Below, one piece after another: positions 6,681 to 52,434 of a DNA stretch of 60,629 nt. This DNA is from an uncultured Planctomycetaceae bacterium (lineage in GTDB: Bacteria; Planctomycetota; Planctomycetia; Planctomycetales; Planctomycetaceae). The stretch spans positions 1-60,629 of the forward strand of contig CAIOKE010000169.1 in NCBI GenBank assembly GCA_903858815.1, in the 5' to 3' direction. Each line of letters begins with the position of its first letter. Within the stretch, counting starts at the first letter, position 1. Made by a program: the position numbers and the translations under genes. Below the pieces are notes generated by a model that worked only from the letters and a program-made list of their open reading frames with translations, did no database searches and had not been told where the DNA came from.

Positions 6681-6698
6681 TGTGGCGAAAAAGCCACA
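6681..6698. terminator. weak hairpin between convergent genes
   Basis: TGTGGC-GAAAAA-GCCACA forms a 6 bp stem in the 132-base gap between the convergent permease and MMPL genes. No T-run follows on either strand, so a terminator role is only suggested by position. Confidence 0.25.
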
Positions 6699-6734
6699 CA
6701 AATCCGGGAGTCAAATCGCGGGTGACAGGCGGAA

Positions 6735-11410: not shown

Positions 11411-11493
11411 GCATCTCGTGGCGAAAAATCACCAACACTCGCACGCCACAATCCCACCGCGCGCACGATTTCCAAAACCTTATCGCCCGGTGC

Positions 11494-12171
11494 TCACAAT
11501 TCCACTGTGCTGCCGGGGGCCATGACCAGCGGCGCAGCACTGGTGTTCTGACGAACCTGCTGGGCCCACAACGTGATATCCTGCTCGATCACCGGGAACG
11601 TCGAATAATGACAGGGAATTGCCAACTGCGGCTGCAGCAGGCGAATGGCAGCCAGCGAATCTTCCGGACCCATCGTGTAATTATCACCCACCGGCAAAAT
11701 AGCAGCCCTTAGACCGGCCGCACCAATCAGTGACATATCCGAGAACAGCGCCGTGTCGCCCGCATGATAGACATTGCCTTCCGCCGTTTTGAACAGCAGC
11801 CCCGCCGGATTGCCTCCATAGGTCCCGTCAGGAAGCACAGAGCCATGGTGCGCAATCGTCAGTTTCAATGTTCCGAAGTCAAAACGAAAGCTGCCTCCAA
11901 GATGCATATCATGCGTCCGAGGAACTCCCTGTTTCTGCAGCCACTGACAGATTTCATGGTTGGAAATCACCAGCGCGTTGGTGCGTTGAGCAATCTGCAC
12001 GGTATCACCCACGTGGTCTCCGTGTCCATGTGACACCACAATGTAATCGCACTGCACCTGATCAGCCGCAATCGTGTTCAGGGGATTGCCGGTCAGAAAC
12101 GGATCAATCAGGATTCGCTGACCACCAACTTCCAGAGCAAACGCACTGTGTCCGAAAAATGTCAGTTTCAT
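11494..12171 (-). CDS. UPF0173-family metal-dependent hydrolase (metallo-beta-lactamase fold)
   Basis: A 225 aa cytoplasmic protein; the whole length fits the family. It begins MKLTFFGHSAFALEVGG and LIDPFLTGNP, typical of UPF0173, and carries the metal-binding motif SHGHGDHVGD (about 48-57) with later histidines and aspartates such as YHAGDTALFSDM and HYSTFP near the C-terminus. The reaction is unknown for most members. It lies 30 bases downstream of the glucose-6-phosphate isomerase gene on the same strand and may be co-transcribed with it. Confidence 0.88.
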   Translation of the reverse strand: MKLTFFGHSAFALEVGGQRILIDPFLTGNPLNTIAADQVQCDYIVVSHGHGDHVGDTVQIAQRTNALVISNHEICQWLQKQGVPRTHDMHLGGSFRFDFGTLKLTIAHHGSVLPDGTYGGNPAGLLFKTAEGNVYHAGDTALFSDMSLIGAAGLRAAILPVGDNYTMGPEDSLAAIRLLQPQLAIPCHYSTFPVIEQDITLWAQQVRQNTSAAPLVMAPGSTVEL

Positions 12172-12201
12172 TGTGCAGATCTCCGCGGCAGAAGTGTGGG
12201 A

Positions 12202-13608
12202 CTATTGAATTCCAAGATTGGCCTGCATGTTGCGTTTATAAGCTTCCACACCCGGCTGACCGTAGGGATTCGTACCTACCAGTCGCCCCTCGACCACTGT
12301 GGCCAGCATCAGCATCTGGAACAGCTGGCCCAGAGCATGTTCGGTCAGACCGGGCAACCGCAGGTCGGCAGTGGGTCGCCCGACATCGGCATAAGCCTGA
12401 TTGGTTCCCGCAATGGCGGCATCAAGGATCCGGGGCAGAGTAGTTCCCGCTAATTGGTTCAAACGATCTTCATCCAGCCGATGGGCAGCCACAGCAAGCG
12501 GCGCCAGCACGGGTGGACCTGGCAACAGATTTGTAATCAGTTTATCCCGTCGGCCTTCCTGATGCTGCTGCCCGCGACTGTGCAGGTCACGAGTATTCAC
12601 CACAGTCAGGGGAGTGGCACCGCGTTCGTGTTTTCCAAGGCTTTCGCTGAGCAGCTGATCGTACCACAGCCCCACGGCTTCAAGACGACTGCCCCACGTC
12701 GACAGGACTCGGCAGTTCAGCCCATGATCAACTTCGAAGGCATGGCACACGGCAACGAACTGCAGCACAACATTCTGATCAAACGGGGCCCGTCGGAAAT
12801 GATCCGTGAGGTCCGCCGCCCCCTGCAGCAATGCTCGAATGTTCAGACCCGCAGCGGCGGCCGGCAGCAAACCCACCGCCGTCAGGACAGAGAACCGTCC
12901 GCCAATACCATCAGGGATCGAGAACACATCACGGTATCCCGCTGCCGCAGCCAGACTGCGAAGCCGACCGGATTCCCCTGTCACCGGAACGATCAGGTCC
13001 CGCTCCAGACCCGAAAAACGTTGCTCCACAAAATCCCGAAACGCGCGAAAGGCCACTGCCGGTTCCAGAGTTCCCCCGGATTTGCTGATGCTGATGACAG
13101 CCGTGCGACCGTCCACAGCGTTGGGATTTGCGGCAGCCCGCTGATCCAGCAGTGACAGCAATTCCTGCTGGCGGTCCGAGTCCACATTCCAACCGTCGAA
13201 ATACAGCCGCGGAGCTCCCTGGCGGGAAGTGCGACACAGTTCATTCCAGCAGGCAGGGCGAAGGGCTTCGAACATCGCTCGCATGCCCATGTAGGAACCA
13301 CCAATCCCCAGCACCACCAGCGAATCAGCCAGCTGCTGCAGCCGTTTGCCACTGTCTTCAAGGCGAGCGACCAGACTGCTGGCCCGATTTCCCTGCAGGT
13401 CTGCCAGCAGCTCCTCTGGCCACTGAATAAACCCGGCGTCCAGCGGCTGTCGCTCGGCCGGCAGTGGCTGACCACTCTGCCACTGGTCCACATCATTCAG
13501 AGTTTCATCACGAGCCGCCTCAAGAGCAGCCTGCAGTCCAGCAAGTCGGCCGGGACGCAGCAGCCTTAATGCGGCATCCGGATGATATGTAAGCAGAGGA
13601 CCAGTCAT
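12202..13608 (-). CDS. pgi: glucose-6-phosphate isomerase
   Basis: Interconverts glucose-6-phosphate and fructose-6-phosphate in glycolysis and gluconeogenesis. From ATG 13608 the protein is 468 aa, near the length of shorter bacterial Pgi enzymes. Conserved features are VLGIGGSYMGMRAM in the first SIS domain, the phosphate-binding ISKSGGTLEP, a second SIS domain with LSTWGSRLEAVGLWYDQLLSESLGK (given here in two parts: LSTWGSRLEAVG and YDQLLSESLGK), and NTRDLHSRGQQ with the catalytic histidine region. A GTG at 13668 would add 20 residues. The UPF0173 gene follows on the same strand. Confidence 0.9.
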   Translation of the reverse strand: MTGPLLTYHPDAALRLLRPGRLAGLQAALEAARDETLNDVDQWQSGQPLPAERQPLDAGFIQWPEELLADLQGNRASSLVARLEDSGKRLQQLADSLVVLGIGGSYMGMRAMFEALRPACWNELCRTSRQGAPRLYFDGWNVDSDRQQELLSLLDQRAAANPNAVDGRTAVISISKSGGTLEPAVAFRAFRDFVEQRFSGLERDLIVPVTGESGRLRSLAAAAGYRDVFSIPDGIGGRFSVLTAVGLLPAAAAGLNIRALLQGAADLTDHFRRAPFDQNVVLQFVAVCHAFEVDHGLNCRVLSTWGSRLEAVGLWYDQLLSESLGKHERGATPLTVVNTRDLHSRGQQHQEGRRDKLITNLLPGPPVLAPLAVAAHRLDEDRLNQLAGTTLPRILDAAIAGTNQAYADVGRPTADLRLPGLTEHALGQLFQMLMLATVVEGRLVGTNPYGQPGVEAYKRNMQANLGIQ

Positions 13609-13932
13609 ATTGGCAGGACTTTGGAAAGGTGTGACAACGGAAGCAATCGGCAACTGAGCAGCCAGCACAGACGATCCGAGGGACTATGAATACGCACCGT
13701 GGGAAATGAAGCATAACGAAACCGACTTCCCACGGCATTTCACTCCGGGTGACGCCGTGGAGATTCCCGCGGCTGCATTGCGTCACCCGCGTCTCCGGTC
13801 ATGCAGTTGCAACACCCGCGCCATCCCACTAACCTTCTTACTCTGCCGACAGACATTTCAGTCAGTCGCAGAAAGTCCTCTGAATTGAAGGAATATGGCA
13901 GTTCCGGAATCGTGACTGCTGCGGTAAAACAC

Positions 13933-15864
13933 ATGGAATGGCAGGCGTGGCTGACAATTGCAGTAACCGTCGCGACCCTGATCGCACTGGCGTTTGATCG
14001 CCCGGCTGATCTGGTGTTCATGGGATCGCTGATTGTACTGACTCTGGCAGGGGTTGTGGACTTCAAGTCCGCCTTCGAAGGCTTTATCAGCCCGTCCCTC
14101 CTGATGGTCGCCGCGTTGTTCGTCGTTACCTCAGGACTGAAAGAGACGGGCGTCGTGGACTATGTCGGAGCCCGTATCCTGGGCCCCGTACGTACAGAGC
14201 TGACGGGATTGGCTATGCTGATCTGCTTTGCGATTGCCGTCTCCGCATTCATGAACAACACGCCGATCGTTGCGATGCTGATTCCTGTTGTTCTGAAATG
14301 GTGCCGCAAGAATCATGTGCCGCCGTCGAAACTGCTGATTCCCCTCTCATTTGCCACAATTCTGGGTGGCTGTTGTTCGCGGATCGGAACCAGCACCAAT
14401 CTGGTTGTTGATGGTTTGATGAAGAAATCCGGTTTACCGGGCCTTGAAGAAATGCATTTCTTCGAAATCGGTCGGGCTGGTCTGCCCTGTGCCATCGTGG
14501 GGGCGATCTATCTGCTGACATTCGGACGCCTGCTGTTGCCCGCTCGTAAAGAACTGCTGGCTCAATTCGGCGAATCGATGCGTGAATACCTTGTCGAAAT
14601 GAAGGTGTCCGCCGGTTGTCGTCTGATCGGCCAGACCATCGAGGCCGCCGGCCTGCGCGGTCTGCCCGGTCTGTTTCTGGCTGAGGTTGACCGTCGCGGG
14701 TCCATCATCGCGCCCGTCAGTCCGGATACTGTTCTCGAACAGGACGATCGTCTGGTCTTCACCGGAATCGTCGACACCATTGTGGACCTGAAGAATATTC
14801 CAGGGCTGGAACCCGTTGCGGCAGGTGAGGATTCAGGCTCTGCGGTCGCGCGGCAGCGCCGCATGTGTGAAGCGGTCGTCAGTCGGTCATCACCATTGAT
14901 TGGCCAGACCGTCAAAGCCTCGCAGTTCCGTTCTCATTACAACGCGGCAATTGTGGCCATTCATCGAAATGGCGAACGTGTCACCACAAAGATCGGTGAT
15001 GTCTGTCTTGAAGCCGGTGATACCCTGCTGCTGCAGACCGGTGCCAACTTTACTCAGGCACATCGCAACAATCCAGACTTCTACCTCGTCAGTGATGTCG
15101 ATGGCTTCCAGGTGGCGCGGCAGGAACGCTGGTGGATCGCCGTTGTCATCTTTCTGGCATTGCTTGCAGCCATGGTGCTGCTGCCTGGGGATCGAGCAAC
15201 CCTTGCAGCGTTCCTGGCCGGTGGACTGATGATTCTGACTCGCTGTATGTCAACAGCAGACGGTCGACAGGCTGTTGAATGGCCCGTTCTGATTGCCATC
15301 GGCGCGTCCTTCGGCCTCGGTACTGCACTCGACAAATCCGGTGCCGCAGAATACCTCGCGGCACAGTTGATTCACCTGACTCAGCCGTTCGGCCCGATCG
15401 CTGCTCTGGCAGCCATTTACTGTGCCACAATGGTTCTGAATGAACTGATCACAAACAACGGGGCTGCCGCAATTGCATTTCCATTCTGCCTGCAGGCTGC
15501 CGAATTGTCGCATAGTCACCCGCGGCCCTTTGTGATGGCCGTCGCACTGGCCTCGTCATTCGCCTTCGCATCGCCGGTGGGGTACCAGACACACATGATG
15601 GTCTTTGGGCCCGGGGGCTACCGCTTCAGTGACTTTGTACGCTCAGGACTGCCACTCAACCTGCTGATGATGATTGTCAGCGTGCTGCTGATCCCGATAC
15701 TCTGGCCTTTCGCTCCACCACCGCAGCCACCAGCAGCCGAAGATCTCAAGGCTGCAGTCGAGGTGCTGCAGGAGCAGCCGGACCTGAATGTCGAGCCGGA
15801 CGCACAGTTCCCGTCGCTGGCCCGTTCCATGCAGGAGCCTCGACAGGGCCACCCGCTCGAATGA
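13933..15864 (+). CDS. SLC13-family anion transporter with two RCK/TrkA-C domains
   Basis: A 643 aa membrane protein from ATG 13933 (MEWQAWLTIAV); the open frame extends to 13801 but the added residues are polar and unlike a membrane protein. The two transporter halves carry the hairpin motifs of the divalent-anion/Na+ symporters: FMNNTPIVAMLIP and SRIGTSTNLVVDGLM in the first, LNELITNNGAAAIAFPF in the second. Between them (about residues 215-380) are two TrkA-C-like regulatory domains, each beginning with LIGQTIEAAG or LIGQTVKASQ. This design is common in bacterial sulfate or dicarboxylate permeases; the substrate cannot be read from sequence. The 3' end overlaps the convergent TPR gene by 119 bases. 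Confidence 0.88.
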   Translation: MEWQAWLTIAVTVATLIALAFDRPADLVFMGSLIVLTLAGVVDFKSAFEGFISPSLLMVAALFVVTSGLKETGVVDYVGARILGPVRTELTGLAMLICFAIAVSAFMNNTPIVAMLIPVVLKWCRKNHVPPSKLLIPLSFATILGGCCSRIGTSTNLVVDGLMKKSGLPGLEEMHFFEIGRAGLPCAIVGAIYLLTFGRLLLPARKELLAQFGESMREYLVEMKVSAGCRLIGQTIEAAGLRGLPGLFLAEVDRRGSIIAPVSPDTVLEQDDRLVFTGIVDTIVDLKNIPGLEPVAAGEDSGSAVARQRRMCEAVVSRSSPLIGQTVKASQFRSHYNAAIVAIHRNGERVTTKIGDVCLEAGDTLLLQTGANFTQAHRNNPDFYLVSDVDGFQVARQERWWIAVVIFLALLAAMVLLPGDRATLAAFLAGGLMILTRCMSTADGRQAVEWPVLIAIGASFGLGTALDKSGAAEYLAAQLIHLTQPFGPIAALAAIYCATMVLNELITNNGAAAIAFPFCLQAAELSHSHPRPFVMAVALASSFAFASPVGYQTHMMVFGPGGYRFSDFVRSGLPLNLLMMIVSVLLIPILWPFAPPPQPPAAEDLKAAVEVLQEQPDLNVEPDAQFPSLARSMQEPRQGHPLE

Positions 15865-34435: not shown

Positions 34436-34479
34436 GTTCACAACGAATTCACCAAAGGTTCATCGAATGCTCACCTTCA
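34436..34479 (+). promoter_or_regulatory. four direct repeats spaced by 11 bases at the porin start
   Basis: GTTCACAACGA, ATTCACCAAAG, GTTCATCGAAT and GCTCACCTTCA follow each other without gaps, each with TCA at the same phase. Direct repeats of 11 bases with a GTTCAC-like core are the layout of PhoB/PhoP-type phosphate-response boxes. The array runs across the ATG at 34467, so it may act as a repressor site or be partly coincidental. Confidence 0.35.
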
Positions 34480-36020
34480 GCTCCAGTCGCTGCATTTCCA
34501 GCCCATCTGGTACTCAGGTTCGCAACCGTCTGCTGGCCCTCCTCGCCTGCTGCTCCGCGCAGTGCGGCATCGCGGGATCGTTGCTGGCCGAGGACCCGGG
34601 CAGTCTTCAGTCGCGTCTGGAGGCGATTGAGTCACAGAACGCCCAGTTGCGGCAGGAACTCAGTGAACTGCGTGATCGTGATGAGCTGCTGGCGACTGAG
34701 ATTTCGTCATCGCGAGTTCTGACAGAAGAGCAGAAGGCGGCCGGTGCCGAAGACCCGAAGGCCTTTTCGGCAAAGTGGAACAACGGATTCGAGGCCACAT
34801 CCAAAGACAAACGATTCAAGTATCACGTCGGTGGTCGCGTTCAGTTCGATACGATCTTCCTGTCGGACAGCCCACAGGCCTTTGCGGGAACCGGACCATT
34901 TACTGATCAGGATGCAGTCGGTTTCCGGCGTGCTCGTCTGCGGGCCGACGGGACGATGTATGAAACGATCGACTGGTGTGCTGAATTCGACTTCGTGAAT
35001 TCGGTAAACGACAATCTTCCCAGTCCGCCGACCGAGTCAACTGTCATCGGAGTCCCGGCTCCGACAGACCTGTGGGTGACGTTCCGCGAAGTTCCTGTGG
35101 TCGGAAATGTCCGTGTCGGTGACGTGAAAGAACCGATTGGCTTCGAGCATCTGACCAGCAGCCGCTACCTGGACTTCATGGAACGCTCGTACAATCAGGA
35201 CATTTTTTACGGCGCCTACAACAACGGATTTACTCCCGGGGTCGTGATCTACGACACGTGGGCTGACGAACTGGGCACCTGGTCGACGGGATTCTTCAAG
35301 AACAACACCAATGTGTTTGGCTATGGAGTTGGTGAAGGCGAGTACGCGTGGACCAGTCGGGTAACGGCCCTGTTGTGGTACGAAGATGAGGGGCGTTACC
35401 TGACACATATCGGTGCATCCGGCAGTCTGCGTGATCCCAACAACGGTCAGACTCAATACAGGGCTCGAGGTTCCCTGCGAAACGGACTGGGTGGCGTCAA
35501 TCCAACCCTGGCCACCACGGGCCAGTTTCTGGCCAGCGATGTGGAGTACGCGGGGCTGGAATTCGTGCACCAGATGGATTCGCTGCTGTTTCAGGCGGAA
35601 TATACAGGCACGTGGAATCATGATGCTGTTGGCAACGGAACCACAGCTCCGGCCGCTGCAAACCTTGGTACTGTCTACTTCTATGGATGGTACGCCGAGG
35701 CCCTGTACTTCCTGACGGGCGAGCACCGCGAGTATGAAAAGAAGCAGGGAGTGTTTGGGCGTGTGTCTCCGGATGAAAACTTCGGCGAAGGCGGTGGCAT
35801 GGGCGGACTTCAGCTGGGTGCCCGCTACAACCAGCTGTGTCTGGTGGATTCCGGCCTGAATGGCGGTCGCCTGCAGGACATCACTCTGGGACTGAACTGG
35901 TTCCTCAACCCCAATATGAAGATCCAAACCAACTATACCCACACAATCCGCGATTCGATCGCCACTCCGGACGGCAGCACCTACGATGGGGTGGGTATGA
36001 GACTGGCATGGGATTTCTGA
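34467..36020 (+). CDS. OprO/OprP-like outer-membrane porin 1
   Basis: A 517 aa outer-membrane beta-barrel protein with a signal peptide (about NRLLALLACCSAQCGIAGSL) and a short coiled-coil segment (SLQSRLEAIESQNAQLRQEL) typical of OprO/P porins. Barrel features include RFKYHVGGRVQFDTIFL, FRRARLRADGTMYETIDWCA, VGDVKEPIGFEHLTSSRYL, YFYGWYAEALYFLTGEHREY and a terminal aromatic residue (RLAWDF). OprO/P porins pass phosphate or polyphosphate; the arginine-ladder specificity cannot be read here. The upstream region carries the shared CTTAACAATT motif and 11-base repeats. A strong terminator-like hairpin follows at 36071-36095. Confidence 0.85.
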   Translation: MLTFSSSRCISSPSGTQVRNRLLALLACCSAQCGIAGSLLAEDPGSLQSRLEAIESQNAQLRQELSELRDRDELLATEISSSRVLTEEQKAAGAEDPKAFSAKWNNGFEATSKDKRFKYHVGGRVQFDTIFLSDSPQAFAGTGPFTDQDAVGFRRARLRADGTMYETIDWCAEFDFVNSVNDNLPSPPTESTVIGVPAPTDLWVTFREVPVVGNVRVGDVKEPIGFEHLTSSRYLDFMERSYNQDIFYGAYNNGFTPGVVIYDTWADELGTWSTGFFKNNTNVFGYGVGEGEYAWTSRVTALLWYEDEGRYLTHIGASGSLRDPNNGQTQYRARGSLRNGLGGVNPTLATTGQFLASDVEYAGLEFVHQMDSLLFQAEYTGTWNHDAVGNGTTAPAAANLGTVYFYGWYAEALYFLTGEHREYEKKQGVFGRVSPDENFGEGGGMGGLQLGARYNQLCLVDSGLNGGRLQDITLGLNWFLNPNMKIQTNYTHTIRDSIATPDGSTYDGVGMRLAWDF

Positions 36021-36070
36021 ACAGGAACTCACGCCCGGATCGTCTCTGGTGCAGAAGACTGAACCCTGCG

Positions 36071-36095
36071 AAAACCGGCAGATACTGCCGGTTTT
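36071..36095 (+). terminator. rho-independent terminator after porin 1
   Basis: AAAACCGGCAG-ATA-CTGCCGGTTTT is a perfect 11 bp stem 50 bases after the porin 1 stop codon, ending in TTTT and followed by CTGCGTTTTG. It lies between porin 1 and the motif upstream of porin 2, so the two porins are separate transcription units. Confidence 0.8.
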
Positions 36096-36128
36096 CTGCG
36101 TTTTGTGGCGATGCAACGTACATAAGAC

Positions 36129-36195
36129 CATTCTTAACAATTACGACTGCAACAATCAGGCAGACTTTGACGATTGTGCCAGACAAGTTAACAAT
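36129..36195 (+). promoter_or_regulatory. shared upstream motif of porin genes, copy 2, with possible promoter
   Basis: It contains CATTCTTAACAATT (36129-36142) and TTTGACG (36166-36172) as in copy 1. TTGACG at 36167 followed after 17 bases by AACAAT at 36190 would be an acceptable -35/-10 pair. GTTAACAATTTCTTA at 36187 repeats part of the motif. Confidence 0.45.
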
Positions 36196-36273
36196 TTCTT
36201 ATGCGTTGGCCGCTCGGATGAATCATCGCTTTACGAGCATTCCGCCGGCACCAAACCTGCAGATTGGTGGCAC

Positions 36274-37800
36274 TTGAATTCCTACATCAATGGTGCTGTA
36301 AATCTTGTTGCCTGCATCGGGATAATTGCAGGTGCTGCCGCAGAAGATCGCGCAGTGTCCGGCCTGCAGCCAACACTCACAGAGTCAGTGATTGAGGACC
36401 GTTTCGGTGCGGCACTGGCTGAGCTTGAACAGCGACTGCTGCGGGTTGAGGATGAAAATCGGCAATTGCACCAGCGACTGAATGCGGCAGACCCGGTTCT
36501 GGAGATCCCGGAGCCGGCAATTGATGATTCCGGATTGCCGGCCTGCAACGATCCCGGTGCAGAACTGACCTCGCTCAGAACTGAGCCAGCACCGCAGTCA
36601 GCCGCAGCGACAGCCGAACCCAAAAAGGAGAAGAAGTGGTTCGAGAAGTACACAATCCGGGGCTATGCACAGCTGCGATTCAATGATGTGCTCGACAGCG
36701 ATGGGGCAGCCGCAGCACAGACAGTCGGCGACAGCTCAATCGGTGATCGACAGTCGTTCCTGCTGCGACGAGTTCGTATGATCATTCAGGGGGATGTTTC
36801 TGAGCATGTCTCGCTGTATTTTCAGCCGGATTTCGCTGCGGCTGTCCCCGGAAGCCCTGACGGCAACCAGTATGGTCAGATCCGTGACATGTATGCCGAT
36901 GTGCACCTCGATGATCAGAAGGAACTGAGGTTTCGAATTGGACAGTCGAAAGTCCCTTATGGCTGGGAAAATCTGCAGTCCAGCTCCAATCGTCTGCCCC
37001 TCGACCGCAATGATGCACTGAACAGCAGCTTTAAAAACGAACGCGATCTGGGTGTGTTCTTCTACTGGACGCCGCTTGAAGTGCAGGAGTTTTTCAAGTA
37101 CGTGAATGACGAAGGCCTGAAGGGTTCCGGGAACTACGGAATGTTTGGCATCGGTTTCTGCAACGGTCAGGGAGGATCACTGCGAGAGCAGAACGACAAT
37201 CTGTGCCTTGTGGCACGTCTCACTGTCCCCTTCGAATATGGGGAAGGTCGACATGCCGAAATCGGCATGCAGGGCTACACCGGCCAGTACGGCGTGCTGG
37301 GAAGCCCAATCAGTCCTCTGGGGGCAGGGCCCGCCGTTCGCCCATCTGGATCTGTAGAGACTGGAGAAACCGGACTCAGAGATGAGCGACTGGCATGGAC
37401 CTTTGTTGCCTACCCGGAACCAATCGGGTTCCAGGCTGAATGGAATGTTGGATATGGCCCGGCGCTCAATGCCAGCCAGACGGCGATTGGTGTGGAATCA
37501 CTCACCGGTGGCTACGCGATGATCATGGGACGCCGCAAGCTCAAAAAGGGCGAGCTTCTGCCGTTTGCTCGATGGAACTACTTTGAAGGTGGCTACAAGA
37601 CCGAAAGAAACGCTCCTTTCGTCAACATTGAGGAATGGGAACTGGGACTGGAATGGCAGTTTTCCAAAAGCCTCGAACTGGTGACGATGTACACACTCAC
37701 GGACCGTACCAGCACAACAGCGCTGACTTCCGCGAATTCTCGTTCCTACCAGCAGTTCGAAGGCCAGCTGGTGCGATGCCAGGTACAGGTCACCTGGTGA
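36274..37800 (+). CDS. OprO/OprP-like outer-membrane porin 2
   Basis: About 508 aa from TTG 36274, which directly precedes a signal-like segment (GAVNLVACIGIIAGAAAED). No in-frame ATG lies between the upstream terminator and the mature protein. A short frame MNHRFTSIPPAPNLQIGGT (36219-36277) ends in TGA overlapping this TTG, so a coupled leader or a one-base frameshift joining the two is possible. The mature part has a coiled-coil segment (LAELEQRLLRVEDENRQLHQ), then the porin barrel: KYTIRGYAQLRFNDVLD, QSFLLRRVRMIIQGDV, RFRIGQSKVPYGWENLQSSS, and a terminal aromatic residue (CQVQVTW). It is related to porin 1 but diverged. Confidence 0.8.
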   Translation: MNSYINGAVNLVACIGIIAGAAAEDRAVSGLQPTLTESVIEDRFGAALAELEQRLLRVEDENRQLHQRLNAADPVLEIPEPAIDDSGLPACNDPGAELTSLRTEPAPQSAAATAEPKKEKKWFEKYTIRGYAQLRFNDVLDSDGAAAAQTVGDSSIGDRQSFLLRRVRMIIQGDVSEHVSLYFQPDFAAAVPGSPDGNQYGQIRDMYADVHLDDQKELRFRIGQSKVPYGWENLQSSSNRLPLDRNDALNSSFKNERDLGVFFYWTPLEVQEFFKYVNDEGLKGSGNYGMFGIGFCNGQGGSLREQNDNLCLVARLTVPFEYGEGRHAEIGMQGYTGQYGVLGSPISPLGAGPAVRPSGSVETGETGLRDERLAWTFVAYPEPIGFQAEWNVGYGPALNASQTAIGVESLTGGYAMIMGRRKLKKGELLPFARWNYFEGGYKTERNAPFVNIEEWELGLEWQFSKSLELVTMYTLTDRTSTTALTSANSRSYQQFEGQLVRCQVQVTW

Positions 37801-37842
37801 GTTTGACGACGACACTCGCGGATTATCTGCAGCACGCCGACC

Positions 37843-39246
37843 TCAGAAATCCACCTGCGCCCGCAGACCAAACATGTCCGTCTGACTCTGAGGACTTCCC
37901 GGCACATTCGCCATGGAATGCACATAGTTGAAGACCAGTTTGGTGTACGGATTCCAGTACCAGTTCACCCCCGCCGTCCAGTCCGTCAGCTGGCCTCCTT
38001 TGATGTCGTGATCGCTGAGATCCAGCCACGAAAACCGAGTGGCAACTTCCCAGGCGCCCGAACCTCCGGCAGCGTTGTAAACAAAATTCTCCTTCGGAAT
38101 CACTCTGTCAATTGCCCCCTGTTTGCGGTCGTAAGGGCGATGTTCGCCCGTCAGAAACCACCCCGCTTGCGCATACACGCCCGGCAACGCACACGACTGA
38201 CCCTGAAAATCGCACATCGTTACCATCGCCTCAGACTGCAGACTGATCGGACCATCGACCCACAGCAGTTCCGAACCAACCACGTGATACGAGGACACGT
38301 TCAGATTGCCAGTCGCCACAAAGAAGGGAGTACCATTTGCTCCCCCAGGAACAGCCTGTCCACTGGATCCCACTGCACCCGGCCCGTTTGCACCAATGTA
38401 GAACTCAGGAATCGTGCGAAAATTGATCGTCTCGTCACCTGGAGCATTAAAAAAGTGACCGGCTCCGATATGCAGATAGCGATTGCCGCCTTCCAGCCAC
38501 ATGGGAAGTATCGTCAGTCTTTCCGCTGTGCCCCATCCACCATCATCCGTCAGCGTACCACCAAACTGGTCCTGCCCCGAGCGAAACACTGAGGCGGCCC
38601 ACGTCGCGTCCAGTTCTTCCGTATGGTCGTAGAAGCCGATCCCCATATGCCGAAACGGCGTAAACGGCTGGAACAGAGAACTGCGCTCCATAAAGGTCGT
38701 GTAACGGAAACTACTGACAACCTCCAGGCTGAATGGCTGTTTCCACTGGCCAATGCGGACGTTGCCCAACACTGGCACCTGAGTCTGCTCGACCCACACG
38801 TCCGTGAAAGTCGGTCGGCCGAAAAAGCCGAAGTCCATCTGGAAAAAGTAGTTTGTCGTCTCAGTGACGCTGCCTTTGGCCGACAGACGAGCACGCCGGA
38901 AATCAGCGCCATCCTGAATGTCACCATATTTCCGGCGACTGGCTGCATCCTGCTGGATCCAGCCCGCATCCGCCTGAAAAACACCGTTAATGGTCACCGA
39001 AGGAAGCGTCTTTTTCGCTGCTTTCGCCTGCAGATCCTGCACCATCTTTTCCAGTTCACCCAGACGCTGGTCCGTATCAGTCAGTTGTGGCTCCACATCC
39101 ACAATTGCGGCTGTGGCTTCCTCGGCAAATGCCACCCTGCCTCCCAAATCGTCGCCTTCCTGTTGTCCAAAGACTGCCTGACAGGAACCCAACAGCAGCA
39201 ATAGTCCGATCGGGTAACAAACAGAGTTCCATGCGATCCTGCCCAT
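37843..39246 (-). CDS. OprO/OprP-like outer-membrane porin 3
   Basis: A 467 aa protein from ATG 39246, which has a CAGGAG site 8 bases upstream and is followed by a good signal peptide (NSVCYPIGLLLLLGSCQAVFG). ATG 39324, also with a GGAGG site, would add 26 residues. A coiled-coil segment (TDTDQRLGELEKMVQDLQAK) precedes the barrel: ADFRRARLSAKGSVTETTNY, VRIGQWKQPFSLEVVSSFRY, QAGWFLTGEHRPYDRKQGAI, and terminal Phe (LRAQVDF). It is closer to porin 1 in several blocks (FLTGEHR, FRRARL). It converges with porin 2 and does not carry the CTTAACAATT motif upstream. Confidence 0.85.
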   Translation of the reverse strand: MGRIAWNSVCYPIGLLLLLGSCQAVFGQQEGDDLGGRVAFAEEATAAIVDVEPQLTDTDQRLGELEKMVQDLQAKAAKKTLPSVTINGVFQADAGWIQQDAASRRKYGDIQDGADFRRARLSAKGSVTETTNYFFQMDFGFFGRPTFTDVWVEQTQVPVLGNVRIGQWKQPFSLEVVSSFRYTTFMERSSLFQPFTPFRHMGIGFYDHTEELDATWAASVFRSGQDQFGGTLTDDGGWGTAERLTILPMWLEGGNRYLHIGAGHFFNAPGDETINFRTIPEFYIGANGPGAVGSSGQAVPGGANGTPFFVATGNLNVSSYHVVGSELLWVDGPISLQSEAMVTMCDFQGQSCALPGVYAQAGWFLTGEHRPYDRKQGAIDRVIPKENFVYNAAGGSGAWEVATRFSWLDLSDHDIKGGQLTDWTAGVNWYWNPYTKLVFNYVHSMANVPGSPQSQTDMFGLRAQVDF

Positions 39247-39525
39247 ACACCAACTCCTGAGGATTGTTCTGAAAAAGGACGCAGACACCAGAGGCACGGC
39301 GCAGGATGCCGATCCTCGGGGCATTTTCCTCCAGTAATTAACCCAGACTTACTGGCCACATCGACATCGACCGACTTTCATTTGAGCCATCAAATCAGCT
39401 ACAGTTGCTGAATCTGAACTCATTTGAATAACTGGTATCGCCGGAAAATATCCCACCGGACACCCCAGCCCCCCATTCCTCCAGTTCCTGCCAGATCCCG
39501 TAGACTCAGGCAGAGGTTGCATCCG

Positions 39526-44842: not shown

Positions 44843-47800
44843 TCAGCGAATGCTGCTGTCCAGCGGTATTACCAGACGGGCCGAACGATCCGTCTCGGAA
44901 GGCGAAGGACCGCGGTCAGGCTGTTCAGAAGGCCCATAGAACAATTGCAGCTGCGAACGCAGTGCTGATTCTCGTTGTCGCGGGTTAGTAATCGTCCAGT
45001 CACGCTGCGGATCCACTACCGTCCACGGACTTCCTGATTTCTGAAGGTACAGTCGCTGTTGCTCAGCGAGATTCAGAGGACGAGCCCCCACGCGTCCGAA
45101 GACTGCCAGTTGATTACCAGCCTCGTCAATTGCACGATCTCGATCCACACCTTCCGACACACACAGGATCTCACCGCCCTCAGGTGCAGGCCATGTCGCC
45201 ACCAGCATGGGCTGAGGACGGACATTGAAGCCCGCGTTACCCGGCGTCTCCGGAGACGTCAGCTGTATTACCCGCAGACCATTATGCCCATCCGCCACAT
45301 ACGCAAACTGGCTGGTATACGTAATGCCAAGCCGTACATCGCGAGCGTCATTGATCAGACCGCCGGCCGTGTATACCTGATCGACTCGCGGCTTTGTCGG
45401 AGTCTCCACATCCACAATTGTCAGACCATTTTTCCCGGCCGCAACATAGGCATAGCTGCGAGCGACATAGAGGCTGCGAGCATCCGCCAGCGACAGAGAA
45501 GCAGCAAGCACCGGCTGATCGGGTTGTGTCATGTCCAGAACCTGCAGCCCACGCTCGTCCAGTACAAACGCATACCGGAACTGCGCCTCAACCGCTCGAG
45601 GCTTCTGCAGCACATCCGCCCCCAGAACCCGCACCACTCGCGGCTTCAATGGATTCTCCAGCGATACGATCACCAGCCCGGCGCGACAGCAGATCCACGC
45701 ATTTGTTCCGATGATCGTGATCGACGTAGCCCCGGTCAGTAGCCCATCCGGATTGAACACAACATCCTTCTTCAGAAAGTTGTTGAGCGGATTACCGTCC
45801 AGCAGTGTCCCGGCTCCGATCATGATCAACCCATCATAAAGATCGGTGGCATACAGGAACCCATACAGCAGATGCACGGGTGGCTCGCCATTCTCCGGTT
45901 GCCTCGCTCGGGTCGGATCAGGAGCGATGGTTGTCGGTGCGGCCACATCAGTCGCAAACCTTGAAGGCACGTAAAACTTCTGTCCGGCAGGAGACACTGG
46001 CGCAGTAACTATGCGTTCAGAAAATCCCTTATGCTCGATAAACGCCACATCAAAAACTCGCACCCCACCCGCACCACAGGCCGCATAGGCATATTCACCA
46101 CGCACCTGAAGACTCAGGATTTCCGGCTTCCTGCCGGGTCGCAACAGCTGATCTCCGATATCCACACCCGGATGCTCATGCGCGTGCTGCAGCACCCCCT
46201 CGTGCTCCCGATGCTGCTTCCATCGCTGCGGATAGACAGCTCGATGCATCGTACTGCCAATGACCGACTGTGGCTCATCCCGCTCCGTCACCTGGACAGC
46301 AAACAAACCGTGATCGCCCGCACCAACCCAGCAGTTTCTCCCAATGAAGTTGAAATAGTTCGTGCCGTGCATCAGCAACTGAGCAAGAAGTGCGTTGTTG
46401 TCACCTGCGTCTGACAAGTGACAGTCTGTGCACGACTTCGTTTCCCCTTTTCCACGAACCGTATGCGGTACGTTGGTTGAAAAGGCGATGCCACTGAGCC
46501 CATCTGCCGAGATGGTCTGCTGCTGAGTGTAAATGGCTTCCCGATTCATATTGTACGAAGTCACATGAATTGCGCATGATGATCGCGACGGGCCAATTCG
46601 ATTGCCTGTCACATTGCCATCCTTCGCCAGCATAAATACGTCATCCCGCAGCGTCTGAAAATTGTAGGCCACCTGATTGCGAGTAATATCCCCCTCGTTG
46701 TGCAGGCTCGGTGTCCTGCGGGTGGCCTTCTGCGGCAGATGACAGCCGTAGCAACTTGGGTTCCATGATGTGTGACAGGCAATGCACGACATCGTGCCCG
46801 TGTTATGACCGCAGCGATCATCCGCAGAAATCGCCCCCCACTGGAACTTCCCGGCATCATCCAGCCGTACGGTCTTGGCCAGTGCTGCTGCCGCATTATA
46901 CTCAGGCTGATCAGGATCCAGCGTGTCGGCAACCTGTGTCACGGGCCAGCTTACGCCCGGCTCAACCATTGAGTTCTGTACCACCCGTCCATTGATGAAT
47001 TCAAACCGGCGACGGCCAAAAGGCGTGCGCATCGCAGACAGACTTCTGCCAACGGTCTGACCGTCCCGCTCTTCTGCTGCAGGCCCGCCCGTCCGCAATT
47101 CACGACGGCCATCAATCGAGATTCCGGCACGAGCAGTGGCTGTGCCATGGCAGTCCTCACAACGGATCTCAATCGCCGCTCGAACTTCCCCGTACAATTT
47201 TCCGTTCCCATGCATGTCCTGCACAAAGTGGCAGTCGACACAATGCATGCCCTTCTCAAGGTGAATGTCCAGCAGATGCACCGGCACTCCGGCATGCTGT
47301 CGCAACAGCGCTTCGTCTGCCTGACGGACCCGTTCCAGTGCCTCGGGGCCCGTCCAGTCGATATCTCGTCGCAGTTCCTTCGCCTGCTCAGCTCGCTTCA
47401 CTGCTCGCTGACGCAGCGCAGCATCCGGCTCGACAACCGGATCACCAAACGCATCCACAGGCATACCATGACGATCCCTGCGGAACACCGCCTGAAACAT
47501 CCAGCCATGGCCATGAAAATCAGCAAACTGAGTATATTCCAGCTGCGGATTCAATCGGCTGGATTCAGCCAGAAACTCAGGGTCCGACCAGTTGCCCCGG
47601 GCCGAAGCCTCGTGAGGATCCGACATCGTGGATTGCATGAACTGTTCAGAAGTCGGCTCACGTTCCTGTTTCGGGTACATGAAACCAGCATCCGTCTCCA
47701 TGTCCCACCACATGAAGCCCAGATAACTGTTCATCACAGTGGTTCCCGGATGCATGTGACAGACGATGCACTGACTGGTCGGAACTCCAGTGGTGAATCG

Positions 47801-49051
47801 ATGAGCAATCGGATGCCCCGGTTCATTTTTCGGGATCGTCGGATCCGGTCGCCCCACAAACTCATCCGGCTGGGCTGCTGCAAAACCACGATTACCATAC
47901 TTCGCAAAGGGACCCGAATGTACCGGCGACCGATCATTCGCATAGACGATGTGACAGGCTGTGCAGCCACTCGAACGAAAGTCACCAGCATGATCATTCG
48001 TTCCCAGAAAATTCAATGTCGGATCCAGCAGACGCGTTTTCTGCAATCCGATGAAGACCGGGTCGGTGCGAGTGCCGGTGCCCAGCCCCCGATTGCTCAG
48101 ACGGGTCCGCGGTCGTCCGGATTCCTCAAGTCGCTCAGGAATTCCAATGTCCGTGACAAACCTCCCGCCTCGCTCAAAGATCCTCAGAATGTTTCCAGGC
48201 TGCGTGATTTCAAAACGTGGCAGGGGTTCAAGATAGGGCAGCACACCTTTGCGAGCCGTTTCGTCCGGAGTAGGCGCAGGCACAGTCTGCAGCCGCTGCG
48301 GCACGCCATGCATACTGTAGCTTTCACCATAGCGAGCCCATTTTTCAGAAACTGCCCCGTTATTGTACAGCGCCGCCCCCCACAGCATGCAGCCATGAGT
48401 CATCATGCTCTTTTTGACCTGCAGCGTCTCGGTCCCATGACAACCCGATGTTCCGCAGCTCTGATGTGCCACTCGCAGATCTCCCGGATTCACAAACCTG
48501 ATGAATTCCGGATCCTCATGATTCAGTACCGTATAAGAACGAACCGGATTGCCGGACGTGCGAAATACATCGGGGAATCGTGGCTGCACATGTGCTGCGT
48601 CCTTGGTACGAGCCAGGGGATTGCCTCCATGACAATCCGAGCATCCCAGATTTACTGCACTGCTGTAGTGAGGATCATGAGCATCCCGATGACACGTGAT
48701 ACAGCCTGCGCTGAGTGCCGCAGCCTCGGCTGGCGTCCGCGTCGCCAGACTCGCCGCAGGCATGGTAATTCTGCCCGCAGGTGGCGAATTCCCCGAGCTT
48801 TTCAGTTGTGCACGACCAGAAATATCCCTGCCCCGTGATTCCTCAGCGCTCAGCGAGGCACGCCCTGTTGTCCCCTCCGAACTTCCGGGCTTCTCAGGCA
48901 ACTCGCCCGCTGCCAGATACCATTCATCCTGACGCGTCTCACGCAGCAGAAACAGTCCGCAGCCCAGCAAAGCAGCGTTCAGCAGCACGACAACAAGAGT
49001 TCGTAGTCTCATGATCATCGAAAACGTCCATCCATGGACACGCAGGAACAC
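44843..49051 (-). CDS. decaheme cytochrome c fused to an LVIVD-type beta-propeller
   Basis: A 1402 aa exported protein. The leader (LRTLVVVLLNAALLGC) fits a lipobox, LLGC, so it may be a lipoprotein; ATG 49018 or 49012 are possible starts. Heme-attachment motifs: CITCH (117), CSDCH (137), CGTSGCH (199, CX4CH), CTACH (363), CIVCH (428), CVDCH (604), CEDCH (631), CIACH (756), CYGCH (767) and CTDCH (874), ten in all. From about 975 to 1290 come LVIVD-like blades, such as YAYAACGAGGVRVFDV, LVIVSLENPLKPRVV, LQVLDMTQPDQPVLA and LTIVDVETPTKPRV. The gene starts about 10 bases after the outer-membrane barrel gene, so the two are co-transcribed. I infer a periplasmic or surface electron carrier working with that barrel. 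Confidence 0.9.
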   Translation of the reverse strand: MFLRVHGWTFSMIMRLRTLVVVLLNAALLGCGLFLLRETRQDEWYLAAGELPEKPGSSEGTTGRASLSAEESRGRDISGRAQLKSSGNSPPAGRITMPAASLATRTPAEAAALSAGCITCHRDAHDPHYSSAVNLGCSDCHGGNPLARTKDAAHVQPRFPDVFRTSGNPVRSYTVLNHEDPEFIRFVNPGDLRVAHQSCGTSGCHGTETLQVKKSMMTHGCMLWGAALYNNGAVSEKWARYGESYSMHGVPQRLQTVPAPTPDETARKGVLPYLEPLPRFEITQPGNILRIFERGGRFVTDIGIPERLEESGRPRTRLSNRGLGTGTRTDPVFIGLQKTRLLDPTLNFLGTNDHAGDFRSSGCTACHIVYANDRSPVHSGPFAKYGNRGFAAAQPDEFVGRPDPTIPKNEPGHPIAHRFTTGVPTSQCIVCHMHPGTTVMNSYLGFMWWDMETDAGFMYPKQEREPTSEQFMQSTMSDPHEASARGNWSDPEFLAESSRLNPQLEYTQFADFHGHGWMFQAVFRRDRHGMPVDAFGDPVVEPDAALRQRAVKRAEQAKELRRDIDWTGPEALERVRQADEALLRQHAGVPVHLLDIHLEKGMHCVDCHFVQDMHGNGKLYGEVRAAIEIRCEDCHGTATARAGISIDGRRELRTGGPAAEERDGQTVGRSLSAMRTPFGRRRFEFINGRVVQNSMVEPGVSWPVTQVADTLDPDQPEYNAAAALAKTVRLDDAGKFQWGAISADDRCGHNTGTMSCIACHTSWNPSCYGCHLPQKATRRTPSLHNEGDITRNQVAYNFQTLRDDVFMLAKDGNVTGNRIGPSRSSCAIHVTSYNMNREAIYTQQQTISADGLSGIAFSTNVPHTVRGKGETKSCTDCHLSDAGDNNALLAQLLMHGTNYFNFIGRNCWVGAGDHGLFAVQVTERDEPQSVIGSTMHRAVYPQRWKQHREHEGVLQHAHEHPGVDIGDQLLRPGRKPEILSLQVRGEYAYAACGAGGVRVFDVAFIEHKGFSERIVTAPVSPAGQKFYVPSRFATDVAAPTTIAPDPTRARQPENGEPPVHLLYGFLYATDLYDGLIMIGAGTLLDGNPLNNFLKKDVVFNPDGLLTGATSITIIGTNAWICCRAGLVIVSLENPLKPRVVRVLGADVLQKPRAVEAQFRYAFVLDERGLQVLDMTQPDQPVLAASLSLADARSLYVARSYAYVAAGKNGLTIVDVETPTKPRVDQVYTAGGLINDARDVRLGITYTSQFAYVADGHNGLRVIQLTSPETPGNAGFNVRPQPMLVATWPAPEGGEILCVSEGVDRDRAIDEAGNQLAVFGRVGARPLNLAEQQRLYLQKSGSPWTVVDPQRDWTITNPRQRESALRSQLQLFYGPSEQPDRGPSPSETDRSARLVIPLDSSIR

Positions 49052-49061
49052 GCGAACGTGA

Positions 49062-51011
49062 CTACCATGTCAGAACCAGATCCATGAACATTCCGTAAAG
49101 GTTTTCCGCTCGTCCGGCCGCACCGGCAGCCGCTGACAGCGGATCTGTAACACCATAAAGATCATCGAAACCGCGACCGGGAAGCAGTGCAGACACACCA
49201 CCGGCAATCAGAATGTTGTCACTCAGCAGGGGACGATACTCGAGCCCCACGCTGAGATCAGTTCCGATACTGCGTGAAATGCCACTCTGATACGCAAATC
49301 GCTCCAGAATGGCCGTCTGATCAAACCACAGAAAGTTGATATTGGTGACTGCCCGAACCCTCGGTGTGATTTCAAAATCCATGCCACCGTTCAGCAGACG
49401 CAGACCAGGGTTCACAAAATTGCTTTGCCCCTGAAACTTGCTGCTGCGAAGGTTCGGCACAAGACTCTCACGCTGCTTCAGATTGACTCCGAATAAGCGA
49501 ATCTGCTGACGCTGCCAGAAACTGAACTGGCCGCCGGCAAAATTCGGATTGTCCAGAACCGAATCGAACCCCTCCGCCTGTCCATCGTTCGGATCATCAT
49601 CCCCCGAAGCCCAGAAACCTGAAGTCCGAAAACGCACCCAGTCACGATCAATCGACAACTCAAGCGCCGCCATGTCAGCACTGATCTGCGAACGTTCCCC
49701 CTGAATCGGATTGAAACTGTCGGTTCCGGTGACATGATAGTACGCGTGGCTCACATTGAATCGGCCGATATGCCCATCGCCGGCAAATCCCAGATACCAT
49801 GCATCAACCTCGTGCGGGCGGTAAACCCCGGCCGGATCAGGCCGCACCAGCACATTGTTACGATCATACTCCACACTGGGCTGATCATTGTTATGGTGCA
49901 GACTGATCATCGCAGTATAGCCGGGGAAAATGAAATCCTGCCGAAAATAGTTGGCGATCAGCGTATTCTGATGGCGGTCGTCGAACGTATTGAGCGTACT
50001 GTTCGTGTCCTTTTCTGTCTGATCAAACCAGATCAGATTGAACTGATCCCGGTTTGACAGTCGCGTTCCGAATAGCCGCACAGCACGATTGGTATCCGCA
50101 AATACAAACCCTCGAAAGTCACTCACAAACGGCTGTGATCCGGCACGAACCGACAGAAAGTCATAGCTGGGGCTCAGGTCCGCCAGACGCGCCTCGACAA
50201 ACCACTCCTCCATCGCCGCATACCCACGAGCTCGCGTCGTTCCGCTGCGAACATTGGGAGTCACAACTGCCAGTTCCTCCACGTCAAGGTAATTCAGATT
50301 GAACACTGGAGCCACCCGAAGCTGCCAGTCAAATGGGCGAAAACCAGCGTCCCCGTGAAACAGACTCAACTGCAGTTTCAGATTGTTAATGAAAAAGTAC
50401 TGGTCGGGATCCCCAAAAAACTCTTCATGGCCCGCTCCTGCTGTACTCTCAAATGGTGAGGTTCCAGTCGGTGTTTTGCGGAATTCATGCAGCATAAAAT
50501 TCGTGGCACTCACATTCAGAAATGTGTGCTGTCCAATGATCGGATAATCGCCCTTCAGAACATTCTGATTGTACGGATCCCACCAGTGCCCCAGTTCTCC
50601 GAAACGATCGTCTACCGGTGGATTGCCGTCCGGATAACGATCTCTCTCCGGAAAACCAATCCGCCAGCGATCTTCCACAGGCACAAAATCCAGAGTCTGC
50701 TGCTGCTCACTGGGGCGAATTCCGGTTGCTCCAGTGTAACCACGAGGCATATCCGCGGGAGAAACGGCAGTCTCCTGCCGAGGTGCGGGCTCAGCAAAAA
50801 CATCTGCCGGAGTCCGGGGCTCAAATGGCATTTGCAGCACGTCAGGCCCGGCTTCTGCATCGCTGGCGACCGATGGCGGTTCCGGAGGTACCTGCAGCGG
50901 CGGAGTGATCGATTCCTGCGCCCCAGCCGAAGACCTTGAACACAAAAATATGCTGAACAGCAGCATCCACCGCAGTTGTCTCCGCACAGACGCACTTACC
51001 CCGCTCACCAT
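49062..51011 (-). CDS. large outer-membrane beta-barrel protein, probable partner of the decaheme cytochrome
   Basis: A 649 aa protein from ATG 51011 (665 aa from ATG 51059), with a signal peptide RRQLRWMLLFSIFLCSRSSA ending near GAQ. A Pro-rich stretch of about 100 residues (TPPLQVPPEPPSVASD) is followed by about 500 residues of alternating amphipathic strands with aromatic girdles (FFINNLKLQLSLFHGDAGF, WQLRVAPVFNLNYLDVEEL, VRAVTNINFLWFDQT) and a terminal aromatic residue (MFMDLVLTW), a typical outer-membrane barrel end. It shows no similarity that I can see to the OprO/P porins at 34-39 kb. Its tight linkage to the decaheme gene suggests the barrel sheath of a porin-cytochrome conduit. No CXXCH is in it. 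Confidence 0.8.
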   Translation of the reverse strand: MVSGVSASVRRQLRWMLLFSIFLCSRSSAGAQESITPPLQVPPEPPSVASDAEAGPDVLQMPFEPRTPADVFAEPAPRQETAVSPADMPRGYTGATGIRPSEQQQTLDFVPVEDRWRIGFPERDRYPDGNPPVDDRFGELGHWWDPYNQNVLKGDYPIIGQHTFLNVSATNFMLHEFRKTPTGTSPFESTAGAGHEEFFGDPDQYFFINNLKLQLSLFHGDAGFRPFDWQLRVAPVFNLNYLDVEELAVVTPNVRSGTTRARGYAAMEEWFVEARLADLSPSYDFLSVRAGSQPFVSDFRGFVFADTNRAVRLFGTRLSNRDQFNLIWFDQTEKDTNSTLNTFDDRHQNTLIANYFRQDFIFPGYTAMISLHHNNDQPSVEYDRNNVLVRPDPAGVYRPHEVDAWYLGFAGDGHIGRFNVSHAYYHVTGTDSFNPIQGERSQISADMAALELSIDRDWVRFRTSGFWASGDDDPNDGQAEGFDSVLDNPNFAGGQFSFWQRQQIRLFGVNLKQRESLVPNLRSSKFQGQSNFVNPGLRLLNGGMDFEITPRVRAVTNINFLWFDQTAILERFAYQSGISRSIGTDLSVGLEYRPLLSDNILIAGGVSALLPGRGFDDLYGVTDPLSAAAGAAGRAENLYGMFMDLVLTW

Positions 51012-51059
51012 CTTGTGGTGACCAGCAGCAGGCCCAGCCAGTTGCAGGGTGGGGGTCAT

Positions 51060-51576: not shown

Positions 51577-52434
51577 CTATTTATTCACAGCCTCAGCCGC
51601 AGTTTTCGCTGTCTGCTCCTGCTGAGCAGACAAGTCTGGATTCGGCTTCGCGTCCAGTTGAATGTCCCCACGAATCCAGCGGACGGCCTCTGTGATTGAC
51701 TTCAAATATCGTTCATCCGCCCACGAGCTTTCATTGTGCCCCAGATTGTTGAAATACACCCGCCCAGCTCCGTACTCCTTGACCCACGCTACCGGCACAT
51801 GATAGGGCATCGATGGTCGGCACTTGGCCATGTTCAGACTCATCAGAACTCGAACCTTCTCTGGCTGCCAGTTCTTGTACTGATAAATCTCGTCGCGAAT
51901 CACAAACTCTGCACCGAACGACTGCATCAGCGGATTCTTCGGTTCATGCACAGTGATCGTCACCTCATTCCCAGCGTTCCACGGATGCCCATTGAAAGTC
52001 CCACCCACCATGTCCCAATACGGCTGGTAGTCTCCGTACGTGTCGGCGGCCGAGTGGAAGCCGAGGAACCCATGGCCTTTGGCCTTCAGCCATTCATTGA
52101 AAAAGTACTGGCGATCAGCTTCTGCGATCGGCAAAGCACCGGTTGTGTAAAACATCACGATATCGTAGTTCTGCAGATTAGCCTTCGTAAAGTCGGATGC
52201 GGCGTCCTGCGTGCAATCGACGCGAAACAAGCCCGTTTTCTCACCCAATTGGATCATCGCCACCTCTGAAACGGCCAGCTTCTCGGACTTTCGATTCACG
52301 CTGCCATGCATAAAACCTGCACTCTGAGTCAGCATCAGGACACGAGATGGCTTGACCTCCTGAGCCAGCAGGCCTCCAGCAAACAGAATACTCGACACCA
52401 GACTCAGCACAAAAGAATACCTGCGAATCGTCAT
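51577..52434 (-). CDS. exported ThuA-domain (trehalose utilisation-like) protein
   Basis: A 285 aa protein with a signal peptide (YSFVLSLVSSILFAGGLLAQ). The ThuA/glutamine-amidotransferase-like fold is shown by RVLMLTQSAGFMHGSVNRKS, NYDIVMFYTTGALP, GFLGFHSAADTYGDYQPYWD, GGTFNGHPW and PVAWVKEYGAGRVYFNNLGH. ThuA-like proteins are abundant in planctomycetes and are linked to sugar metabolism; the reaction is unresolved. A good terminator follows, and the gene is divergent from the zinc-ribbon gene. Confidence 0.88.
   Translation of the reverse strand: MTIRRYSFVLSLVSSILFAGGLLAQEVKPSRVLMLTQSAGFMHGSVNRKSEKLAVSEVAMIQLGEKTGLFRVDCTQDAASDFTKANLQNYDIVMFYTTGALPIAEADRQYFFNEWLKAKGHGFLGFHSAADTYGDYQPYWDMVGGTFNGHPWNAGNEVTITVHEPKNPLMQSFGAEFVIRDEIYQYKNWQPEKVRVLMSLNMAKCRPSMPYHVPVAWVKEYGAGRVYFNNLGHNESSWADERYLKSITEAVRWIRGDIQLDAKPNPDLSAQQEQTAKTAAEAVNK

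Follow-up and report, generated by a model that had tools for sequence, protein, structure and literature searches.

Among the genes of an uncultured Planctomycetaceae bacterium, a tandem pair raises the question of whether a predicted outer-membrane barrel and a large multiheme cytochrome act together to carry electrons across the cell envelope. The pair lies on the minus strand of contig CAIOKE010000169.1 (assembly GCA_903858815.1), the 60,629 nucleotides of which are the window analyzed here: the barrel gene (49062..51059; 665 aa, ATG start) is followed by that of a decaheme cytochrome with a C-terminal LVIVD propeller (44843..49051; 1402 aa, GTG start), the GTG start sitting 10 bp past the barrel stop codon. 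In-frame ATG codons at residues 12 and 14 could also serve as cytochrome starts and would give a gap of ~43-49 bp. An initial annotation, made from the DNA letters alone, had delimited the same two open reading frames, as is confirmed here, and had proposed a planctomycete conduit for extracellular electron transfer in which a single fused cytochrome might stand in for the usual two. The analysis described below favors, with moderate confidence, the reading that the pair forms the outer-membrane terminus of an electron-transfer chain of the PCC4 type (PMC5566968), and it is probably a variant of a system known so far from genome surveys only.

The cytochrome carries nine CXXCH motifs and one CX4CH (residue 199); 5000 shuffles of the protein gave a mean of 0.023 CXXCH and a maximum of 2. 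In a set of 72 aligned sequences, made up of the window protein and the 71 of 97 hit loci that passed a completeness filter (26 were dropped), C(X2 or X4)CH occupies all ten positions, in 72/72 sequences at eight sites and in 71/72 at two. Because homologues hold either CXXCH (41/72) or CX4CH (31/72) at site 3, the CX4CH is taken as a real tenth heme site, and the ten sites counted in the initial annotation stand. Placed by motif and alignment, all on the minus strand, these are CITCH at aa 117 (48689..48703), CSDCH at aa 137 (48629..48643), CGTSGCH, the CX4CH site, at aa 199 (48437..48457), CTACH at aa 363 (47951..47965), CIVCH at aa 428 (47756..47770), CVDCH at aa 604 (47228..47242), CEDCH at aa 631 (47147..47161), CIACH at aa 756 (46772..46786), CYGCH at aa 767 (46739..46753) and CTDCH at aa 874 (46418..46432). 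The propeller noted earlier is likewise borne out by Pfam PF08309 (LVIVD; E 9.7e-14, above the family cut-off), with its best repeat at aa 1190-1222 (45386-45484, minus strand) and presumed limits of ~aa 970-1347 (45011..46144, minus strand); matches to relatives often stop near aa 1347. Hydrazine synthase also combines a propeller with hemes; its family was absent from Pfam and NCBIfam scans of the window proteins, no direct comparison having been made. A relationship to ExtM, ExtN and ExtO was considered and rejected, the similarity being one of generic heme motifs (ExtM model NF040943, 70.7 bits against a cut-off of 800, best stretch 47 residues).

Linkage of the two genes was examined among the best 80 of 134 cytochrome relatives found by a protein search of genome contigs, the record titles of which name a planctomycete in 77 cases and only a "bacterium" in three; among relatives with a name, L002 ("Planctomyces sp.") comes nearest, at 85% identity. 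Together with the phylum-wide search, this points to a planctomycete as the source. The initial annotation had made its proposal depend on a barrel gene lying beside orthologous cytochromes. This expectation is borne out in a weakened form. Where 2.3 kb or more of sequence is available upstream of the cytochrome (62 loci), it holds for 48, at which the barrel gene immediately precedes the cytochrome on the same strand (47 satisfy the rule, and L002, in which the matches overlap slightly, is added), and it fails for the other 14, one of which (L052) has the barrel close by on the opposite strand while 13 have none at the locus. Loci without a barrel number 25 in all, and of these the genomes of 22 were searched (L020, L065 and L079 were left out): a barrel is encoded elsewhere in 21 of the 22, including all 13 with enough upstream sequence, and the L036 genome is the sole one of those searched in which none was found. 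The L034 genome has its barrel in two pieces on two contigs, that of L050 a piece of only ~100 residues, and the L051 cytochrome, missed by the open reading frame caller used for neighborhoods, was shown by tblastn. A different outer-membrane protein (family F21), divergently oriented, stands beside the cytochrome without an adjacent barrel at L034 and L053, and the L053 member matches Legionella_OMP.

Co-occurrence was then measured in an even draw of 294 Planctomycetota genomes that included the window's own. A 251-aa piece of the cytochrome has a strong match in 32 genomes (E<=4e-41, the next best being 4e-9), and the barrel has a match in 33, of which 32 are strong and one (G076) is weak at 3e-4. 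The 32 strong-barrel genomes are the same as the 32 strong-cytochrome genomes (Fisher p 5e-42, uncorrected for kinship), with the pair on one contig in 30 and adjacent on one strand in 28. The distribution is patchy, since only 2/17 genomes of the window's own family, the window genome counted, have the pair. The two proteins also diverge together: for 56 pairs the correlation between the two sets of distances is r 0.81, against a permutation maximum of 0.22 in 2000, and for the rows of seven non-adjacent pairs it is r 0.93. Such observations bear on the simplest alternative, that barrel and cytochrome are co-transcribed without forming a complex and that the barrel is a general porin. The lack of an adjacent same-strand barrel at 14/62 loci would suit this explanation; however, the presence of the barrel elsewhere in all 13 genomes with none at the locus, its position on the other strand nearby in L052, the correlated divergence of even the non-adjacent pairs and a restriction to the same 32/294 genomes that is unexpected of a general porin together make it very improbable.

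What the pair might be connected to is indicated by its neighbors in other genomes, which were clustered from the 80 loci and window positions 34001-60629 and annotated by Pfam from one or a few members of each family. The largest family, F2 (35 of the 80 loci), is an HbpS-domain protein; F3 (29 loci) comprises multiheme cytochromes whose domains resemble those of c554 or c7, F4 (24) has no Pfam match, F5 (14) is a 10-heme cytochrome that has a membrane segment at its N terminus in 14/14, F6 (13) weakly matches b-type cytochromes (E 0.001, under the cut-off), F7 (12) is a 4Fe-4S protein with cyclic-nucleotide (cNMP)-binding domains and F8 (10) is a GAF/cyclase protein. The F8 gene stands beside the cytochrome in several relatives, e.g. 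L045, L052 and L063; the cNMP-binding domains of F7 and the F8 neighbor suggest second-messenger control of electron flow. All of F2-F8 are absent from window positions 34001-60629. Contig C5 of the same genome, in turn, encodes a PCC4-like redox set in a row on one strand: the Fe-S/cNMP protein (F7, 4328-6595) directly upstream of a motif-bearing inner-membrane protein (IMP; F6, 6606-9104), then a 10-heme (F5, 9165-10880), a 4-heme (F3, 10905-12377) and a 5-heme (F3, 12411-14057) cytochrome with 10, 4 and 5 CXXCH, respectively. F2 and F4 are found on contig C119. In some relatives the pair is flanked by multiheme cytochromes like those of C5, and the earlier notion of one fused cytochrome in place of the usual two is not upheld by a genome that has these three besides.

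Assignment of the redox set to PCC4 draws on the description by He et al. 2017, in the available text of which PCC4 comprises a porin, 4-, 5- and 10-heme cytochromes, an IMP and other redox proteins, its subgroup II, which includes Planctomycetes, has the gene of an Fe-S protein (pfam13247) located upstream of that for the IMP, and two WX3HX13H motifs with SGXXG are the IMP signature of PCC3 and PCC4 (PMC5566968). Both WX3HX13H motifs and SGXXG are present in 11/11 aligned F6 members, in which simple hydropathy gives 3 to 6 membrane segments (five in 4/11, four in the window genome's copy); the PCC4 protein is described with five transmembrane helices. The C5 Fe-S protein has several Fer4 models above cut-off, PF13247 itself scoring 24.4 bits against 26.2. 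A profile of the Fe-S protein matched 269/294 genomes and was dropped from co-occurrence counting as too generic, the IMP being used instead. At E<=1e-50 the IMP is found in 19/294 genomes, of which 17 carry the pair, and at E<=1e-30 in 34 of 36 pair-bearing genomes hand-picked by eye from the 80 loci, or in 27/29 without the seven that had supplied rows of the IMP profile. The window genome's IMP has a ~540-residue repetitive Ala/Pro-rich insertion, with repeats like SPLELMKQKAAEKAA, that none of 10 aligned relatives has; G321 and G330 show similarly long, split IMP matches.

The frequency of the HbpS-domain protein invites a different interpretation of the neighborhood, namely that the pair serves assimilation by extracellular reduction or handling of Fe(III) or heme for iron uptake, with the HbpS protein as a surface binder of heme or iron. 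F2 is present in the retrieved flanks of 35/80 loci, on both of the sphingomonad plasmids opened (of 13; see below) and on C119 of the window genome. However, six redox proteins with 28 CXXCH and one CX4CH in the window genome would, on general knowledge, be an excess for such a purpose, and neither a transporter nor a siderophore gene appears among the annotated families F2-F8, F15 and F21 (F9-F14 and F16-F20 being unannotated), so that an assimilatory role is regarded as improbable.

The barrel has no Pfam or NCBIfam family at cut-off, with two weak Pfam matches at E 0.18 and 0.23, and its assignment as an outer-membrane barrel, anticipated by the initial annotation, comes from structure prediction. 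An AlphaFold model of residues 95-665, built with 60 homologues hand-picked from match lists, has 18 long beta strands (mean pLDDT 81.9, the strands mostly >90); according to its strand list the barrel domain takes up residues ~179-664 (49068..50525, minus strand) and follows a signal region, recognized by eye, and a proline-rich low-confidence stretch. Long loops and short turns mostly alternate, as in barrels. An unusually long loop of 68 aa between strands 13 and 14 (residues ~485-552) is more conserved than the strands (0.77 vs 0.65) and, from the pattern of short turns and long loops in the model, would be expected on the outward-facing side. In a Foldseek comparison of the model with the PDB the first 15 matches are all to AlgE (best E 5.3e-16, TMt up to 0.69), followed by other porins (MOMP, chitoporin, Occ); the 50 matches listed of 889 do not include MtrB. 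By sequence, PDB searches with the whole cytochrome, the propeller and a barrel profile gave no match at E<=1.

This resemblance to AlgE and other porins could also be read in terms of an enzyme: the cytochrome would act in the periplasm or at the surface on a soluble substrate, the AlgE/Occ-like barrel would be the channel for substrate or product, and the propeller would be the site for a substrate or partner. Conserved non-heme residues of the cytochrome (C221, C826, H829 and C992, kept in >=99% of the 72 sequences, as are histidines including H128, H219, H413, H417, H434, H515, H592 and H597) fit such a role, in that the first four could build an active site. A profile of the heme part also shows a weak similarity to NrfA chains in the PDB around one heme pair, and models of NrfA and of the tetrathionate reductase family match in the Pfam and NCBIfam scans far under cut-off. 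However, the NrfA similarity (E 0.09 and above) is confined to ~80 residues with two heme motifs, no enzyme family reaches its cut-off, and a likely IMP partner is present in most of the pair-bearing genomes checked (though at 1e-50 in only 17/32 of the even draw). The enzyme is accordingly viewed as a rather unlikely explanation.

Several observations weigh against placing the pair at the end of a PCC4-type chain. With the pair on C169, the redox set on C5 and HbpS on C119, the window genome lacks the single-cluster organization of PCC4, and since the set is on a different contig, the link of pair to chain in this genome rests on co-occurrence. That co-occurrence is itself imperfect: 15 of the 32 pair-bearing genomes have no IMP match at 1e-50, 12 of these having weaker matches that are possibly divergent or paralogous and three (G052, G108 and G154) no match even at E<=1e-3; conversely, in G044 and G076 the IMP match is strong but the pair is not (G076 has the weak barrel match). 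Each of the three genomes without an IMP match has an Fe-S/cNMP match of about 1e-50 on the contig of the pair. In the available text of He et al. 2017, PCC4 is without an extracellular multiheme cytochrome, and the present cytochrome may be absent from, or uncounted in, those clusters (PMC5566968). The heme part of the cytochrome was modeled as residues 97-1010 with 53 hand-picked homologues, the whole protein being over a 1200-aa limit, and gave a pLDDT of only 55; a PDB fold search with this model had no match at E<=0.001, and the model was not used. Finally, a narrow AlgE-type barrel, as modeled, speaks against a simple sheath of the MtrAB kind.

With the pair placed at the outer membrane as the last part of a PCC4-type chain, the system would function as follows. 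A cytoplasmic Fe-S protein with cyclic-nucleotide-binding domains would exchange electrons with the IMP, which would bear two b hemes and hand electrons to the 10-heme cytochrome anchored in the inner membrane; from there they would pass to the periplasmic 4- and 5-heme cytochromes and on to the large cytochrome, which, together with the 18-strand barrel, would pass electrons to, or take them from, a partner at the outer membrane or outside it. Gene content, conserved heme sites, the predicted barrel fold, co-occurrence and correlated divergence are what the analysis shows; the order of carriers, the crossing of the outer membrane, the location of the proteins and a physical complex of barrel and cytochrome, like any direction of flow or substrate, are proposals. 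Judged by geometry, an 18-strand AlgE-like barrel is probably too narrow to sheath the whole decaheme protein, and the crossing would therefore use an arrangement other than the MtrAB sheath, e.g. a heme-bearing segment plugging the pore. Of the conduit first proposed, the conserved and co-occurring pair stands, and a PCC4-like chain gives it a plausible trans-envelope route; its "extracellular" part is still a proposal.

The pair is also found outside the planctomycetes. When 72,556 plasmid records were searched by tblastn, near-full-length cytochrome homologues turned up on 13, 12 from Sphingobium and one from Sphingopyxis, at 40-43% identity over 89-90%, several of the Sphingobium records appearing closely related. 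The two loci opened are on large plasmids (L106 and L107) typed as conjugative in PLSDB, the other 11 records being non-mobilizable. Plasmid pMSHV of Sphingobium herbicidovorans MH carries, over ~16 kb, F3, F2, barrel and cytochrome followed in opposite orientation by F5, F6 and F7, which comes near to the single-cluster PCC4 layout, parts of which are together in some other relatives too. Its F3 carries one site of longer spacing besides 4 CXXCH, the pMSHV proteins compared include no second F3, and its F7 additionally has pyridine-nucleotide oxidoreductase domains. Plasmid pMC4 of Sphingopyxis indica has F3, F2, barrel and cytochrome, and a search of the plasmid alone gave no IMP match at E<=1e-30. 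A bolder reading, offered tentatively and considered rather doubtful, is that Planctomycetota and sphingomonad plasmids share a distinct type of conduit in which electrons, fed from NAD(P)H by a cyclic-nucleotide-gated flavin/Fe-S protein, would reach the decaheme-propeller protein by a new geometry through an AlgE-like 18-strand barrel that would be too narrow to sheath a decaheme protein.

Elsewhere in the window, a ThuA-family gene (51577-52434, minus strand) lies ~0.5 kb upstream of the barrel gene on the same strand, the ThuA-family cluster being present among the 80 loci in L002 and L003 only, and three large consecutive open reading frames at 34467-39324 (517, 583 and 493 aa) look porin-like by eye.

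If the assignment to a PCC4-type chain is true, planctomycetes from lakes, groundwater and other sources, to go by record titles, and some soil sphingomonads have an electron chain across the envelope that belongs to neither the Mtr nor the Omb family, and the "large decaheme plus porin" pattern becomes tied to PCC4. The nearly complete cluster on a plasmid of the cultured S. herbicidovorans MH makes the PCC4 hypothesis testable, the pair is also carried by the cultured planctomycetes Rubripirellula obstinata and Roseiconus nitratireducens, and a structural question is raised as to how electrons pass through an 18-strand barrel.

In comparison with known systems, the pair shares the logic of a barrel plus a decaheme cytochrome with MtrCAB, MtoAB and PioAB. 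However, homology to MtrCAB or Omb-Oma-Omc, the conduits named in the initial annotation, is not borne out as far as tested: scans of both window proteins with Pfam and NCBIfam gave no MtrB-type barrel and no MtrA- or MtrC-type cytochrome at E<=1, the cytochrome is more than three times as long as MtrA, and since MtrB has 26 strands the 18-strand barrel is not an MtrB-type sheath. AlgE, the alginate exporter of Pseudomonas aeruginosa, is itself an 18-strand barrel and offers the closest fold (E 5e-16), but identity is only 12-13% and the partner here is a cytochrome; no alginate gene was recognized among the annotated neighbor families, alginate genes not having been searched for as such. Another porin adjoining a multiheme cytochrome in the PVC superphylum is known from Verrucomicrobia, and by the available description it is set apart by an eight-heme cytochrome and a porin with at least 20 transmembrane motifs (PMC5615132).

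Among the open-licence papers listed, and in the passages available, none was seen that links such a pair with a propeller, with an AlgE-like barrel or with PCC4, and a search there for a multiheme porin-cytochrome of Sphingobium gave no paper; a paper on Mn oxidation reports, in the part available, no such cytochromes in its strain (PMC9634551). A 2023 study mentions porin-cytochrome complexes in metagenome-assembled genomes, many of them Planctomycetota (available text of PMC10732223). Closer still is group 1 of the Sterkfontein metagenome-assembled genomes (2026), with a 4-5 kb decaheme gene beside a ~20-strand porin in 11 clusters and a ferredoxin-NADP reductase gene near 7/11 of them (PMC13264449). 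By description alone, without sequence comparison, group 1 fits the pair and F7 well, although propeller, barrel fold and a PCC4 link, as seen for the present pair, go unstated in the available text (PMC13264449). With PCC4 as described in the available text, the window genome differs in the 1400-aa decaheme-propeller protein and in its organization over several contigs rather than a single cluster, and the porins are likened by description only; in content it agrees with PCC4, having a porin, 4-, 5- and 10-heme cytochromes, an IMP with the published signature and an Fe-S protein encoded upstream of it (PMC5566968).

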